A stretch of DNA of 64,000 bases. Origin: Ornithinimicrobium sp. F0845. Lineage in GTDB: Bacteria > Actinomycetota > Actinomycetes > Actinomycetales > Dermatophilaceae. The stretch is taken from assembly GCF_023015765.1 (NCBI RefSeq), contig NZ_JALKAL010000004.1, positions 248,001 through 312,000 of the forward strand, written 5' to 3'. The notes below the pieces were generated by a model that was not told where the DNA came from, made no database searches, and saw only the letters and a list, made by a program, of their open reading frames with translations. Positions 18,585-23,584 of this stretch are shown here, one piece after another (position 1 is the first letter of the stretch; every line of letters begins with the position of its first letter). Position numbers and translations under genes: made by a program.

Positions 18585-19232
18585 TCACCGGGTGAGGTGG
18601 TGCAGGACGGCCAGCACCCGACGGTGGTCGTCGTCGCGCGGGGGCAGGCCCAGCGCGCTGTAGATGTGCGAGGTGTGCTGCACGACGGCCTTCTCGGTGA
18701 GGGTGAGGTGCCGGGCGATCCAGGAGTTGCTGCGCCCCTGCGCCATCAGGGCGAGCACCTCCTCCTGCCGGGGCGTGAGGTGCTGGCCACCCGTGTCGTC
18801 GCGCCGTGCCCGCGCGACCAGGAGGGCGACCACCTCCGGGTCGAGCACCGTGCCCCCGGCGCGCACCCGCTCCAGGTCGGCGCTGAAGGTGTCGATGTCG
18901 GCGATGCGCTGCTTGAGGAGGTAGCCGATCCCGGCGGGCCGCTCGGCGAGCAGCTCGGTGACATACCGTCGCTGCACGTGCTGGGACAGCACCACGATCG
19001 CGGTGTCCGCGTGCTCGCGGCTGATGGTCAGGGCGGCGACCAGGCCCTCGTCGGTGAATCCTGGGGGCATCCGGATGTCGGTCACCACCAGATCCGGTCG
19101 GTGCTCCTCGGTCAGGGCGACCACGCTCGGCGCATCCTCGGCGGCGGCGACGACCTCGTGTCCCGCGTGCTCGAGGACGAGCTGCAGACCCTGCCGCAGC
19201 AGGGCCTCGTCCTCACCGATCACGACGCGCAC
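18585..19232 (-). CDS. NarL/LuxR-family response regulator
   Basis: A 215-residue protein with a GTG start. The receiver domain has the phospho-acceptor Asp in LVVTDIRMPP, the acidic pair in IGEDEALLRQ, and the conserved Lys in YLLKQRI. The C-terminal LuxR HTH is LTPRQEEVLALMAQGRSNSWIARHL. The gene start lies inside the 3' end of the histidine kinase gene, a 13-base overlap, so the two are cotranscribed. The likely target is the divergent pair at 21139 and 21461, across the palindrome at 21017-21049. Confidence 0.93.
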   Translation of the reverse strand: MRVVIGEDEALLRQGLQLVLEHAGHEVVAAAEDAPSVVALTEEHRPDLVVTDIRMPPGFTDEGLVAALTISREHADTAIVVLSQHVQRRYVTELLAERPAGIGYLLKQRIADIDTFSADLERVRAGGTVLDPEVVALLVARARRDDTGGQHLTPRQEEVLALMAQGRSNSWIARHLTLTEKAVVQHTSHIYSALGLPPRDDDHRRVLAVLHHLTR

Positions 19233-20980
19233 GGCAGCTCCGCGGTCAGGCGGGTGCCCCCGCCGGCAGGGCTGTCCAGGCGGAGCCGCCCGCCCAGCAC
19301 GTCGACCCGGTCGGCCAGGCTGCGCAGCCCCAGGCCGCTGTTCAGGTGCGCACCGCCGACGCCGTCATCGCCCACCTCGACCAGGAGGGTGCCGTCGCTG
19401 GCCGCGAGACGCACCGCCAGCTCCCGTGCCTGCGCGTGCCGGACCGCGTTGGTCAGGCCCTCGGCGAGGACGAAGTATGCCGTGCTCTCCACGGCGGAGG
19501 ACAGGTGCTGTCCGTCGACGCTCACCTCGAGCCGGGTGCGCAGCGGCAGGTGGTCGACCAGGTCCTCGGCGGCGGCCGCCAGACCGCGCTCGAGCAACGG
19601 CGCCGGCATCACCCCGTAGACGAAGCGGCGCAGCTCACCGGCCGTCACGTCGATCCCGGCCCGCAGGGCGGTGGCCGCCTGGACCGTCGCTGGGGTCGCG
19701 GCCGGGTCGGCGGCGATGCGTTGCGCATCCAGGCCCAGCACGACCAGCTCGGCCTGCACGCCGTCGTGCAGGTTCTGCGCGATCCGGCGACGCTCCAGGT
19801 CGCCGGCCTCGACCAGCCGCTCCCTGGACAGTCGCAGCGCCTGCTCGCCCGCGCGCAGCTGCGCCGTGAGCCGCTCCCGGTCGACGGCCAGCGCGATCAC
19901 CCGCCCTGCCGCACGGACCGGCTCGGGGTCGCCGAGCAGCGTGGCGTCATAGACGATCGCGCCCACGCGGCGGCCGTCGAGGTCGACGGTGACCACGTCC
20001 CGGTCACCATCCACGGACGGGAGGTCGACCGGCTGACCGGACGCATCGACATACTCCCGGGTGTCGGGGACCCAGAAGACCAGCTGCAGCGTCGGGTCGC
20101 CGAGGGTGCGGGACAGCGCCTCGACGAGCGTGGTGCGTGCGGTGCCGGTGCCCCCGAGCCAGGCGCCGAGCTCCTCCACCTCACCGGTGCGCGCGAAGCC
20201 GCCACGGAGCAGGCCGAGGCAGAAGGCCAGGGGCACGCCGCCGATGACGGCCAGCTGTGCCGTGCCGATCGTCTCGGGGGGAACGTCGAGCAGGGGCCGG
20301 ATGACGTTGGCGCTGACGGGGATGAACAGCACGGCGACGACGCCGTAGGAGTAGAGCGGTGCCAGCACCCGCCTCCGCGGTGGGTCCGCGGCCCTCAGCC
20401 TGCGGACGAGGAGCACGGTGGTCACCACCATGACGACCGCCCCGGCCGCGGCCTGCACGAACAGCCCGGTCGTGACCAGAGCGGGTCGGTCCGCGACTCC
20501 GAGCAGATGGTAGGGCGGCGGGGCCGGTGCGAACAGGTACTGCGGCGCCTGCAGCACCAGGGAGACGGCGTAGCCCCCGAGCACGGTCCAGCGCGAGAGT
20601 CTGCCCCGGAGCCGGCCGGAGGGGAAGGCGTGCAGGAGATGCACCATCACGGCCAGGATCATGGTGGCGCCCACCGTGGACACGGCGATCAGCACCGGGA
20701 CCGTGGTGAACCCCAGGGCGCCCAGCAGCAGGGCCCCGCACCCGACCACCATGATGAGGCCGAGCCGGTTGCTCGGGCGCCACCACCAGGCCAGGACACC
20801 GGCTCCCAGGTAGACGGCGGCGACCAGCTGGAACAGCACCGGGTGCCAGGGTTCGGTGGCGCCGTCGAGTCCCAGGACCAGCTCCAGGACGGCGATCATC
20901 GCGACCGCGACCACGAGCAGCACCAGCGCCAGGTGCGTCGAGCGGGTCGCGGGCGACGGCGTCACCCTCGAACGGGTCAT
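19220..20980 (-). CDS. NarL-type sensor histidine kinase
   Basis: A 586-residue protein started at MTRSRVTPSPATRS (20980). About eight transmembrane helices occupy residues 15-275, followed by a small GAF-like region, the HisKA_3 segment ERRRIAQNLHDGVQAELVVLGL with the phospho-acceptor His, and a HATPase with NAVRHAQ and GDDGVGG. The membrane part resembles the multi-helix sensors of bacterial LiaS/ComP-type kinases. The signal is unknown. It diverges from the 86-residue peptide gene, which might be a signal or a target. Confidence 0.92.
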   Translation of the reverse strand: MTRSRVTPSPATRSTHLALVLLVVAVAMIAVLELVLGLDGATEPWHPVLFQLVAAVYLGAGVLAWWWRPSNRLGLIMVVGCGALLLGALGFTTVPVLIAVSTVGATMILAVMVHLLHAFPSGRLRGRLSRWTVLGGYAVSLVLQAPQYLFAPAPPPYHLLGVADRPALVTTGLFVQAAAGAVVMVVTTVLLVRRLRAADPPRRRVLAPLYSYGVVAVLFIPVSANVIRPLLDVPPETIGTAQLAVIGGVPLAFCLGLLRGGFARTGEVEELGAWLGGTGTARTTLVEALSRTLGDPTLQLVFWVPDTREYVDASGQPVDLPSVDGDRDVVTVDLDGRRVGAIVYDATLLGDPEPVRAAGRVIALAVDRERLTAQLRAGEQALRLSRERLVEAGDLERRRIAQNLHDGVQAELVVLGLDAQRIAADPAATPATVQAATALRAGIDVTAGELRRFVYGVMPAPLLERGLAAAAEDLVDHLPLRTRLEVSVDGQHLSSAVESTAYFVLAEGLTNAVRHAQARELAVRLAASDGTLLVEVGDDGVGGAHLNSGLGLRSLADRVDVLGGRLRLDSPAGGGTRLTAELPCAS

Positions 20981-21016: not shown

Positions 21017-21049
21017 GACCCAGATCCTGTGCAGGACAGGACCTGGGTC
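21017..21049. promoter_or_regulatory. Long near-perfect palindrome, putative response-regulator operator
   Basis: Arms GACCCAG (21017-21023) and CTGGGTC (21043-21049) enclose a second inverted repeat TCCTGT (21025-21030) and ACAGGA (21036-21041). One mismatch separates the two levels, giving a dyad of 33 bases. It lies 37 bases upstream of the kinase start and 90 bases upstream of the peptide gene, placed to control both. Confidence 0.6.
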
Positions 21050-21095
21050 TCTTCCGCTGGTCACTGTCGGCCCTGGAGACTTGAGAGGTGATCCA

Positions 21096-21116
21096 GCCCG
21101 GGCCGTGAACCCGGGC
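21096..21116 (+). promoter_or_regulatory. Leader hairpin before the 86-aa gene
   Basis: GCCCGGG (21096-21102) and CCCGGGC (21110-21116) form a perfect seven-base-pair stem with a seven-base loop. It ends eight bases before the strong ribosome binding site AAGGAGG at 21125-21131. It may stabilise the leader or modulate translation; no T-tract follows, so it is not a terminator. Confidence 0.45.
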
Positions 21117-21138
21117 GAACACCCAAGGAGGGATCACC

Positions 21139-21399
21139 ATGAGCACGTCCTCCGCCGCCATCAGCGTCACCAGCACCGGATCTGCAACCGTTGCACCCCG
21201 CAGTCTTGGCACGAGTGCACCACCCGCCACGAGTGCACCACCCGCCCAGCGCGCCCATCCTCTGGCCCGGCTGTGGCGGGCGATGCACCGCCCGCCCCGG
21301 CCGCCGCGCCCGGAGGGCGTCCCCCTCATCCACAACAGACCGGAGCAGTTCGGCCAGAGCTGCCGCTATCCGGACGGCACCTGGTTCCACGGCTGCTGA
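21139..21399 (+). CDS. Small protein with Cys-bounded C-terminal tail (86 aa)
   Basis: MSTSSAAISVTSTGSATVAP begins a Ser/Thr/Ala/Pro-rich, disordered-looking N-terminal half. A basic RLWRAMHRPPRPPRPE segment follows. The tail ends SCRYPDGTWFHGC with a C-terminal Cys and one other Cys 12 residues earlier. The ribosome binding site AAGGAGG is near ideal, so high expression is likely. No signal peptide is visible. An 18-base in-frame tandem duplication (ACGAGTGCACCACCCGCC) encodes repeated TSAPPA. The disulfide- or thioether-capable tail, small size and position opposite a two-component system suggest a peptide precursor or small regulatory protein, but I recognise no family. Confidence 0.65.
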   Translation: MSTSSAAISVTSTGSATVAPRSLGTSAPPATSAPPAQRAHPLARLWRAMHRPPRPPRPEGVPLIHNRPEQFGQSCRYPDGTWFHGC

Positions 21400-21460
21400 G
21401 CGCCGCGGCGCCGGGTGGCCGCTCCTTCCCGAGCCGCCCGGCGCCGACGACGAGCCGCAC

Positions 21461-22168
21461 ATGAGCGATGCGCGCGCAGAGTTCCGTGGCGGCCGCCCGG
21501 CGCGGCGGACCGTGGTCAGGGGCGCCGCCTGGGCCGTCCCGGCCATCGTCGTCGCCTCGGCCTCGCCCGTGTTCGCCGCGTCCGGGGAGTGCCTCATCAG
21601 CAGTGTCACCCCGGAGGCCGTCGACCAGTTGACGGACACCCAGGTGCTGGTCGGGTTCGAGCCGGCGGCACCAGCCGGGATGACCGCCTCCGTCTCTTTG
21701 GAGCGCGAGGGCGTCGTCCACCGGTATACGCCGATCGCAGGCACCGCCGATAGCGTGACGATCAACGTCCTGCAGGGCACGCTGGACACCGGCGTCTACG
21801 ACGTCCGCCTGGAGTTCACCGACGGCACGACCACGATCTCGTGCACGCGCGTCGGGGTCGTCACGGTGACCTCCACGTTCAAGATCCGCACCATGTCGCC
21901 GACGTTGATCCCCAACGACATCACGATCGCGATCACCATCGTCACTACAGACATCGCGGCGACGCAGACCGTTACCGCGGTGCTCTTCACCCTGGACGGC
22001 ACCGTCGTCTCCCTCCCGCCGGATCCCTCGCCGATCAGCGACAGGATCCCGGTCACGATCCACCGCCATCAACTGGCGCCCGGTGTCCACGACGTCAGCG
22101 TGGTGACGGTCAACGGGGCGCTGACCACGACCGCCGTGTTCGTCGATGGTCTGACCGTCGTTGCCTAG
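21461..22168 (+). CDS. Tat-exported hypothetical protein
   Basis: A 235-residue protein with an N-terminal twin-arginine signal, ARRTVVRGAAWAVPAIVVASASPVFA, and a probable signal-peptidase site after VFA. The mature part is rich in beta strands with alternating Val/Thr (VYDVRLEFTDGTTTISC, then ITIAITIVTTDIAATQTVTAVLF), like two immunoglobulin-like folds, with two Cys. Exported folded by the Tat system. It lies 61 bases after the Cys-tail gene on the same strand and is probably cotranscribed with it. No family recognised. Confidence 0.75.
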   Translation: MSDARAEFRGGRPARRTVVRGAAWAVPAIVVASASPVFAASGECLISSVTPEAVDQLTDTQVLVGFEPAAPAGMTASVSLEREGVVHRYTPIAGTADSVTINVLQGTLDTGVYDVRLEFTDGTTTISCTRVGVVTVTSTFKIRTMSPTLIPNDITIAITIVTTDIAATQTVTAVLFTLDGTVVSLPPDPSPISDRIPVTIHRHQLAPGVHDVSVVTVNGALTTTAVFVDGLTVVA

Positions 22169-22771: not shown

Positions 22772-23029
22772 TCAGCGGTAGACGTCCGCACGATGCTCGA
22801 CTGCGATGATGGTCACGCGATGGTCGATCCGGTAGATGATCCGGTAGTCGCCGCGGCGTGCGCTGTGCAGCCCTTCAAGGTCGAAGCGCAGGGCCTTGCC
22901 GACGCGCTGCGGATTGTTCGCGAGTGGGCCATAGATGAACTCGATGGCCGCCGTGGCCACTTTCTCCGGCAGTCTCTGTAGCGCCCGTTTGGCTGTTGGC
23001 GTCCACGCGACCTCGTACTGCTTCGCCAT
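22772..23029 (-). CDS. RelE/ParE-family toxin
   Basis: An 85-residue basic protein: YEVAWTPTAKRALQRLPEKVATAAIEFI, then GKALRFDLEGLHSARRGDYRIIYRID. The GLHSARRGDYRIIY segment is the RelE catalytic strand pattern (Arg and Tyr residues that act on ribosome-bound mRNA). The start overlaps the antitoxin stop by one base (TGATG), the usual translational coupling of such modules. Confidence 0.92.
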   Translation of the reverse strand: MAKQYEVAWTPTAKRALQRLPEKVATAAIEFIYGPLANNPQRVGKALRFDLEGLHSARRGDYRIIYRIDHRVTIIAVEHRADVYR

Positions 23030-23310
23030 CAGGGGTGCAGCGTGGCAAGGATCTCTTCCTTGCTGAGGGTCTCGGTCTCGCCGGCGACGAGCTCAGCAAG
23101 GCTGTCTCGAACCTGGGCGATGAGCTTGGGTCGGCTCACGACCTCCAGCGTCTCCTCCAGCGATTCCAGGTCGTCGGTGCTCATGACCACCGCGGCTGCC
23201 TTGCCGTGACGAGTGATGACGATCCGGTCATGCTCTCGCTGGACCTGATCCACCACCTCGGACAGGCGATTCTTCACGTCCCTCAAGGCCATCGAAGCAT
23301 CCACACTCAT
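23029..23310 (-). CDS. Phd/YefM-family antitoxin
   Basis: A 93-residue protein started at MSVDASMALRDVKNRLSEVVDQV (23310); an ATG six codons upstream (23328) is possible. The N-terminal part with HDRIVITRHGKAAAVVMSTDDLESLEETL is the Phd/YefM DNA-binding fold; the acidic C-terminus neutralises the toxin. TACACT (23322-23317) seven bases before the ATG would give a leaderless message. TGGCTA is directly repeated 12 bases apart there and may be part of the operator. Confidence 0.9.
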   Translation of the reverse strand: MSVDASMALRDVKNRLSEVVDQVQREHDRIVITRHGKAAAVVMSTDDLESLEETLEVVSRPKLIAQVRDSLAELVAGETETLSKEEILATLHP

Positions 23311-23356
23311 AGCCACAAGTGTAGCCATATCAGACTGCGGGTGACGATCCCCCTCT

Positions 23357-23584
23357 GATGAAGGGCACGCCCTTGTCAGGGCGCTCACCGAGCGGGAACG
23401 TGAGGTGCTGGTGCTCATGGCACGAGGACTATCCAACGACCAGATCGCGGCCGGGCTGGTGATCTCACCGGCCACGGTGAAGACGCACATCAACCGGGTG
23501 CTTGCCAAGCTGGGCGCGACCTCGCGCGTGCAAGCGGTAGTCCTGGCGTATGAGGCCGGACTCGTCCAGCCGGGCGGCCGCTGA
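23357..23584 (+). pseudogene. LuxR/NarL response-regulator C-terminal remnant
   Basis: An open frame without its own start encodes [45 protein letters not shown] and ends in LVQPGGR. This is a complete LuxR-type HTH with the usual actinobacterial tail, but the receiver domain is absent. The break lies next to the toxin-antitoxin module, suggesting that insertion of that module or a deletion removed the 5' part. Expression of the stand-alone HTH cannot be excluded, because ATG codons exist nearby. Confidence 0.75.

Follow-up and report, generated by a model that had tools for sequence, protein, structure and literature searches.

A two-component system and a divergent small gene

We analysed a 64,000-nucleotide stretch of the 4.2 Mb genome of Ornithinimicrobium sp. 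F0845 (contig NZ_JALKAL010000004.1, positions 248,001 to 312,000), hereafter the window, around an inverted repeat that lies between a two-component system and a small gene of the opposite strand. The two-component genes are read from the reverse strand. The response regulator (18585..19232) is of the NarL type, with a receiver and a LuxR/GerE DNA-binding domain (Pfam Response_reg 1.7e-15, GerE 4.1e-10), and its gene overlaps that of a multi-helix HisKA_3/HATPase sensor kinase (19220..20980; HATPase_c 9.9e-9, HisKA_3 1.7e-7). Both domain pairs exceeded the Pfam cut-offs. The inverted repeat (21017..21049) has 13-base arms with one mismatch and a loop of 7 bases. On its other side, on the forward strand, lies an open reading frame (ORF) of 86 codons, ORF86 (21139..21399), which encodes a small basic protein and whose ATG is preceded by AAGGAGG. 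A first-pass annotation of this DNA had described a divergent NarL-type pair, a near-perfect 33-base palindrome and an 86-residue ORF with an excellent ribosome binding site, and in these points it was correct.

Orthologues of the kinase were present in six other genomes of the 184 in the family set, and the species collection held at least 78 orthologous loci among the best matches listed, 56 of them matching beyond the C-terminal part of the protein. The Georgenia orthologue was 76% identical to the window kinase and the Geodermatophilus orthologue 59%, and the Georgenia regulator (locus L087) was 86.5% identical to that of the window. Regulator orthologues with 50-66% identity were found in six genomes, next to the kinase gene in five and about 1.8 kb away in the sixth (L063, genome G031), where an ORF resembling FAD-linked oxidoreductases and an operator-like site stand between the two genes. 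All seven kinases in the first alignment terminate in E-[LI]-P-C, the invariant Cys being followed by no more than two residues (19229..19231 in the window).

The pair resembles the named NarL/FixJ-type HisKA_3 systems, among which the nearest NCBIfam models are MctS/MctR, MadS/MadR, UhpB and LiaS, in its domain make-up, its overlapping genes and the presence of a dyad-type site near them. However, it scored far under the equivalog cut-offs of the MctSR, MadSR and LiaS models (87 bits against 700 for MctS), and the targets of the named systems differ from those of the window pair.

A putative tandem operator conserved upstream of the kinase

The repeat consists of two tandem dyads 23 bases apart, GACCCAGATC (21017..21026) and GACCTGGGTC (21040..21049). 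Their common pattern is GACCYRGGTC, and the approximate consensus over loci is CGGAANGGACCYRGGTCCNTTCCG. Equally good palindromes began at 10 positions in the G+C-rich window, which correspond to nine distinct places. Palindrome quality is therefore not rare here, and conservation is what counts.

We ranked half-sites in the 350 bases upstream of 54 of the 78 kinase loci, a set that excluded 22 C-terminal-only matches and two loci (L114 and L137) with a match beginning close to the end of a contig. GACC-N2-GGTC, a motif already known before the ranking, headed all 4-base palindromic half-sites with gaps of 0-4, occurring in 18 loci, where dinucleotide shuffles predict 1.15. Addition of the window and of five loci from the family brought the set to 60; L064 was omitted because it shares its contig with L091. 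At a loose threshold, a dyad-seeded matrix found sites in 45 of these loci (mononucleotide shuffles: mean 5.2, maximum 10). With a leave-one-out profile, first seeded with the dyad, sites of 11 bits were present in 32 loci against 1.1 expected from dinucleotide shuffles. The same profile gave a site in 8 of 432 and 24 of 701 background windows of 380 bases, which probably did not include L062. The dyad was kept upstream of kinase orthologues with or without a small ORF opposite, which indicates that the operator belongs to the two-component system. Most likely, then, the palindrome is a putative operator of the neighbouring kinase and regulator genes.

A second site was located 22-25 bases away in nine of the 35 loci having a site of at least 11 bits: the window, L087, L088, L062, L101, L103, L112, L122 and L218, a locus described below. 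The second site was weak in L088 and L122. A tandem-pair profile built from these nine pairs, which match it by construction, was run on 18 genomes. All 18 gave some match at E up to 1, mostly weak. In the window's own genome the best pair had an E of 1e-7, with the window site itself part of the model, and the next place had 0.15. The single pattern GACCYRGGTC occurred 116 times in this genome against 45 for a reversed control pattern, and many of the listed occurrences were GACCCGGGTC.

A similar half-site has been reported for another regulator of the LuxR family. In the available part of the report, CrbR of Pseudomonas depends for activation on an imperfect inverted repeat, activity being lost when the repeat is mutated, and the ACTU motif sites listed for it include GACCAAGGTC (PMC5715377). 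Several listed sites have the form GACC..GGTC, and the list contains GACCTAGGTC itself, there a weak prediction with a q of 0.717 (PMC5715377). This similarity supports such a site for such a regulator, and it reduces the novelty of the half-site. The systems are otherwise different. CrbS, found in Pseudomonas and other Gammaproteobacteria, is described there as a hybrid SLC5-type kinase, whereas the window kinase passes the Pfam cut-off only for HisKA_3 and HATPase_c. The accessible text on CrbS/CrbR concerns acetate genes, with single dyads in its examples and neither a peptide nor a wall enzyme (PMC5715377).

The small protein and its C-terminal end

Homologues of ORF86 lie across from the kinase gene, as in the window, in Georgenia subflava (L087, 68 residues) and Geodermatophilus sp. 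TF02-6 (L088, 67 residues). The distance from the operator to the start codon is 89 bases in the window, 92 in L087 and 100 in L088. When a profile of the three tails was run on 47 kinase-bearing genomes, it refound the known three and revealed a second Geodermatophilus copy (E 6e-9); five further genomes gave hits at E 0.02-0.09. The second copy (L218) encodes 65 residues on another contig, and a good ribosome site precedes it as it does the other three. A tandem operator pair, GATCTGGGTC and GACCTGGGTC, 24 bases apart, lies 206 bases before its start codon. These were the only sites above 11.5 bits in the surrounding 13 kb, and the matrix had been made before the locus was known. No kinase match was found in the 13 kb around this copy (L258). 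The reappearance of peptide and operator together, away from the kinase, is the best indication that the peptide is part of the regulon. It is also what the first-pass annotation's view of the peptide as an output of the system predicts, and that part of its proposal was supported, whereas the second output it named, an exported protein, was not. The proposal had further hinged on the palindrome recurring at orthologous loci and on the small ORF being conserved as coding. Both held, since the palindrome is conserved as an operator-like site and the ORF as a protein in three genomes. Judged from these comparisons, ORF86 is a real, rare gene.

The conserved part of the protein is its 16-residue end, FGxSxx[YW]PDG[TS]WxHxx (21349..21396). 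Nine of 24 aligned residues are invariant in all four tails. Over 17 residues the tails share 8 to 13 identities across pairs; in each pair the N-terminal part shows greater divergence. The four proteins are all basic, with a net charge of +5 to +8. In a model of the window protein, a short helix formed at residues 41-49 and three short strands within 69-84. The mean predicted local distance difference test (pLDDT) score was 92 for residues 71-80 and 86 for residues 81-86, and lower elsewhere. Foldseek matches of this model were rejected, as all had an E of 5 or more.

The tail had first been reported as SCRYPDGTWFHGC with a Cys-x11-Cys spacing. The letters were right, and the spacing is C-x10-C. 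We also rejected the Cys pair as a conserved feature travelling with the palindrome. The aligned residues are F and E in Georgenia, and Y and G or Y and S in the two Geodermatophilus copies. Two Cys do occur in L088, at different positions; L087 and L218 lack Cys altogether.

Searches with ORF86 found little. Among 186 family genomes the full protein matched 18 besides its own (E 7e-4 to 0.009); these matches were weak and of a composition type as judged from the match listing, and the peptide was accordingly taken as not found in the other 185. Its 31-residue tail matched 21 genomes besides its own among 396 of the order, and none of the 19 loci read was convincing. A three-row alignment run on 396 phylum genomes gave weak matches in 93 besides its own, of which two were inspected. 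Nothing convincing came from a collection of 84,980 species or from plasmids, phages and viral contigs. These negatives are not strong, since the search of the 84,980 species missed the Georgenia and Geodermatophilus homologues present in that collection. With the tail profile, no peptide was detected in the Geodermatophilus family (112 genomes) or order (269 genomes) outside the Geodermatophilus genome itself, which leaves 111 and 268 genomes without it; in the Georgenia family set (200 genomes) the profile gave nine weak matches besides Georgenia, all nine of which were read and rejected.

A tree of kinases with 55 rows placed those of the window and Georgenia as sisters (100/100). The Geodermatophilus kinase paired with a Pseudonocardia kinase (89/86), next to which no peptide gene lies. 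At E up to 1e-60 the kinase was absent from all other genomes that the set holds for the window's genus, which makes transfer between lineages likely.

Wall-enzyme genes across the putative operator

At nine orthologous loci the gene divergent to the kinase encodes a wall enzyme, and an operator site of 12.9-17.8 bits lies between the two. The enzyme is a beta-lactamase-like protein (PF00144) at L097, L113, L124 and L139, an M23 protein at L101, L103, L123 and L140, and an S13 protein at L062. The M23 peptidases of these four loci (Pseudonocardia, Actinomycetospora) have a lipoprotein-like start. Relatives of seven wall-enzyme query proteins lay somewhere in the DNA of 30 of 61 orthologous loci, the query loci counted; by family, there were 23 loci with PF00144, 12 with S13 and 5 with M23. 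From the genes that stand across the operator in the nine loci, and by analogy with them, the two-component system probably manages the cell wall.

Several operator pairs away from the kinase had an E of about 1e-4. They lay before an M23 protein (L226) and before an alpha/beta hydrolase (L238), each on another contig, and between two PF00144 genes about 5 kb from the kinase (L227); a fourth, far from the kinase, had no clear target (L239). Weaker pairs were located at L242 (E 0.002), some 17 kb from the kinase and preceding a gene whose product had no Pfam match, and at L245 (E 0.005), a place without clear target. The second Geodermatophilus peptide gene is followed by a gene for a CAP-domain protein with a signal-like start, about 86 bases on, and then by one for a PF00144 protein.

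A comparable arrangement is cwaRS-ldcA of Lactobacillus paracasei, in which, as the available summary has it, a two-component system lies beside a predicted wall carboxypeptidase gene (PMC7062640). Like many of the orthologous loci, this system adjoins a wall-enzyme gene; it differs in belonging to another phylum, and the opening of its abstract mentions no small peptide (PMC7062640).

Other neighbours of the kinase, identified by eye, were an FG-GAP-like protein, an alkaline-phosphatase-like protein, transporters and oxidoreductases. Two divergent neighbours differ in kind from the wall enzymes. At L105 (1677-3653, Nakamurella) the protein carries an eCIS core domain together with a weak match of the ADP-ribosyltransferase-like kind; at L145 (2233-3723) only the latter match is present, at the cut-off.

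Proposed mechanism

The explanation that best fits the whole, and which we consider probable, is an autoregulated NarL-type system with a shared divergent operator, a wall-related signal and, as its local output, a small basic protein that is not exported. Dimers of the phosphorylated regulator would bind the two dyads, which are about two helical turns apart, and would control transcription both ways, acting on the kinase and regulator genes themselves and on the small gene opposite. Elsewhere in actinobacteria the operator often faces genes of wall-active enzymes (beta-lactamase-like/DD-peptidase, M23), and the signal would probably be the state of the cell wall. In the window, Georgenia and Geodermatophilus the kinase-side target would instead be a protein of 65-86 residues without an evident export signal. 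Its variable N-terminal part would carry a short basic helix, and its last 16 residues would form most of a tiny three-stranded sheet, the would-be binding end. The protein may remain intracellular, perhaps on the cytoplasmic side of the membrane, with its tail docked on a partner. The circuit itself, that is, autoregulation through a shared operator, is well supported by sequence conservation as a predicted arrangement. For the small protein, our best guess is an intracellular effector or feedback protein that docks by its tail; the docking role is tentative, and we would put it at somewhat less than an even chance.

Several observations weigh against this explanation. The peptide was found in three genomes only, as four genes, and a tail scan of 65 kinase loci, which include three distant ones and one duplicate, detected it in only two besides the window (L087 and L088). 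The three peptide-bearing kinases do not form one clade, the peptide label requiring two changes in the tree (13 of 500 shuffles were as low); a one-change labelling appeared in none of 200 bootstrap trees, and the strongly supported branches alone do not exclude it. No site above the threshold was present at 28 of the 60 kinase loci, some of them probably because of a misplaced kinase start. The peptide model rests on three sequences and is of low confidence over most of the chain. The excess of tail conservation, clear in five pairs, is slight between the window and L088 (9/17 identities in the tail against 19/42 in the N-terminal part), and the tail codons show too few changes to prove constraint (1-4 synonymous and 4-9 nonsynonymous per pair, over 17 codons in six pairs). 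None of the 22 distant-kinase control loci had a wall enzyme, these being largely from other phyla and unmatched. No related wall enzyme was found within the 14 kb of the window searched, and according to the tandem-pair profile the window and Georgenia genomes have no significant operator pair besides the kinase-adjacent one. For the window, the wall link therefore holds by analogy only.

The analysis provides a defined operator and a testable list of targets for a two-component family spread over many actinobacterial families, and a new small-protein family that occurs in distant genomes under the same switch. Neither the two-component family nor the tail with its system was found described in the open-access literature searched, outside which most subscription papers lie. 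If the wall link holds, the operator would offer a route to the control of DD-peptidase/beta-lactamase-like and M23 enzymes in these bacteria.

Alternative explanations

The small protein might act as a feedback regulator, controlled by the operator and binding the kinase or the regulator in the cell to tune the response. Its divergent position across a shared operator in three genomes is in keeping with this, as is the paralogue in Geodermatophilus, which keeps 13 of 17 tail residues; the modelled basic helix and small folded tail would suit a docking protein. However, at almost every other orthologous system no such peptide was seen, though the operator is retained at many of them, and we regard this role as possible but rather unlikely.

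The peptide could also be a pheromone. ComX of the Bacillus ComQXPA system is a small precursor with a Trp near its C-terminus. Here too, the end of the precursor with its invariant Trp would be processed, leave the cell and be sensed by the multi-helix kinase. In favour of this, the kinase and regulator are of the same kind (HisKA_3 and NarL-type), the ORF is of precursor size without an evident signal sequence and has a conserved C-terminal end, and its occurrence in distant genomes is sporadic. However, no modifying enzyme of the ComQ kind, an isoprenyl transferase, was found among the 10 window genes and the 9 genes of other peptide loci scanned. With the peptide at so few kinase loci, and most orthologous kinases having none alongside, the kinase is not generally dependent on it, and the second Geodermatophilus copy has no kinase match in the 13 kb around it. 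ComP senses a modified ComX peptide of 10 residues, according to the available part of PMC8895600. In the accessible portion of a comQXPA census all four genes are adjacent on one strand (PMC4008528), whereas the peptide gene is divergent from the kinase in all three loci here. We consider a pheromone improbable. Were the peptide a signal after all, it would represent an actinobacterial peptide circuit built on a NarL-type system.

A bolder form of this idea, in our view a long shot, is a compact, horizontally transferred cassette of regulator, kinase, tandem operator and peptide. The 16-residue end would be the active part of a peptide signal, possibly closed into a ring between the invariant Gly and Asp; the kinase would sense it, and it would feed back through the shared operator on a programme that elsewhere serves wall remodelling. 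We know of no cassette of that kind in actinobacteria. In lasso peptides, Gly1 and an Asp or Glu at position 7-9 of the core close the ring, and a Thr stands at leader position -2. All four tails have a Gly followed by an Asp seven residues on (positions 1 and 8 of G-x-S-x-x-[YW]-P-D). However, position -2 is Q or R, not Thr, in all four, and no cyclase or protease gene was found among the neighbour genes scanned.

The first-pass annotation had joined ORF86 in a two-gene unit with the next gene on the forward strand (21461..22168), which encodes a protein with a twin-arginine translocation (Tat) signal. It was right about the signal (RRTVVRG...) and the two Cys in the mature part. The two genes might constitute a single operon whose products work jointly in the extracellular space, the Tat protein either exporting the peptide or leaving the cell along with it. 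Only 61 bases separate the two ORFs in the window, and the L218 peptide gene is likewise followed by that of the signal-bearing CAP-domain protein. The downstream proteins of the window and L218 are different, however, and a tblastn search with the Tat protein, at E up to 0.1, matched nothing in L087, L088, L218, L258, L259 and L260, which cover the DNA around the other three peptide genes. A strong hairpin directly after the ORF86 stop (21404..21449, forward strand), absent from the first-pass annotation, also stands between the genes. The stretch 21394-21460 folds with -45.1 kcal/mol (z -4.88), which none of 200 shuffles equalled. The hairpin is a candidate terminator or attenuator without a T run, and a consensus terminator scan found no terminator there. 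The stretch after the peptide gene gave z -3.07 in L088, -1.64 in L087 and -1.15 in L218, and was thus weak in the latter two. The hairpin and the missing Tat matches place the Tat gene outside the module, as a downstream neighbour whose membership is unsupported. We rejected it as a conserved partner and consider joint action outside the cell very improbable.

Finally, it is scarcely credible that ORF86 is no gene and the repeat only a terminator or a chance palindrome. In favour of this, most searches lacked a convincing match, similar inverted repeats occur at the nine window places and the codon-position G+C of the ORF is a weak coding signal (0.64/0.71/0.79). Against it, homologous ORFs stand at the same place in two genomes and under the operator at a fourth locus (profile E 6e-9 or better), all four have good ribosome sites, and the dyad is conserved as sequence, beyond a mere stem.

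Neighbouring features

The Tat protein, for whose mature part the first-pass annotation had suggested an immunoglobulin-like fold, had no Pfam or NCBIfam match. It was matched in 29 of the 184 family genomes, its own included, mostly in the signal-peptide region. A single-sequence model of it had a mean pLDDT of 45.5, with mostly strands at residues ~61-130. A second hairpin, claimed earlier to precede the ORF86 ribosome binding site, did not exceed chance (z -0.50, matched by 60 of 200 shuffles), and we rejected it as a regulatory element.

Further along, a LuxR/GerE DNA-binding stretch (23384-23584, forward strand), in which no receiver was seen within the 66 residues scanned, is perhaps what is left of a further NarL-type regulator. 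On the reverse strand near the Tat gene (22772-23316), Pfam identified a toxin of the ParE type (22772-23029), and the gene upstream of it encodes a Phd/YefM antitoxin.

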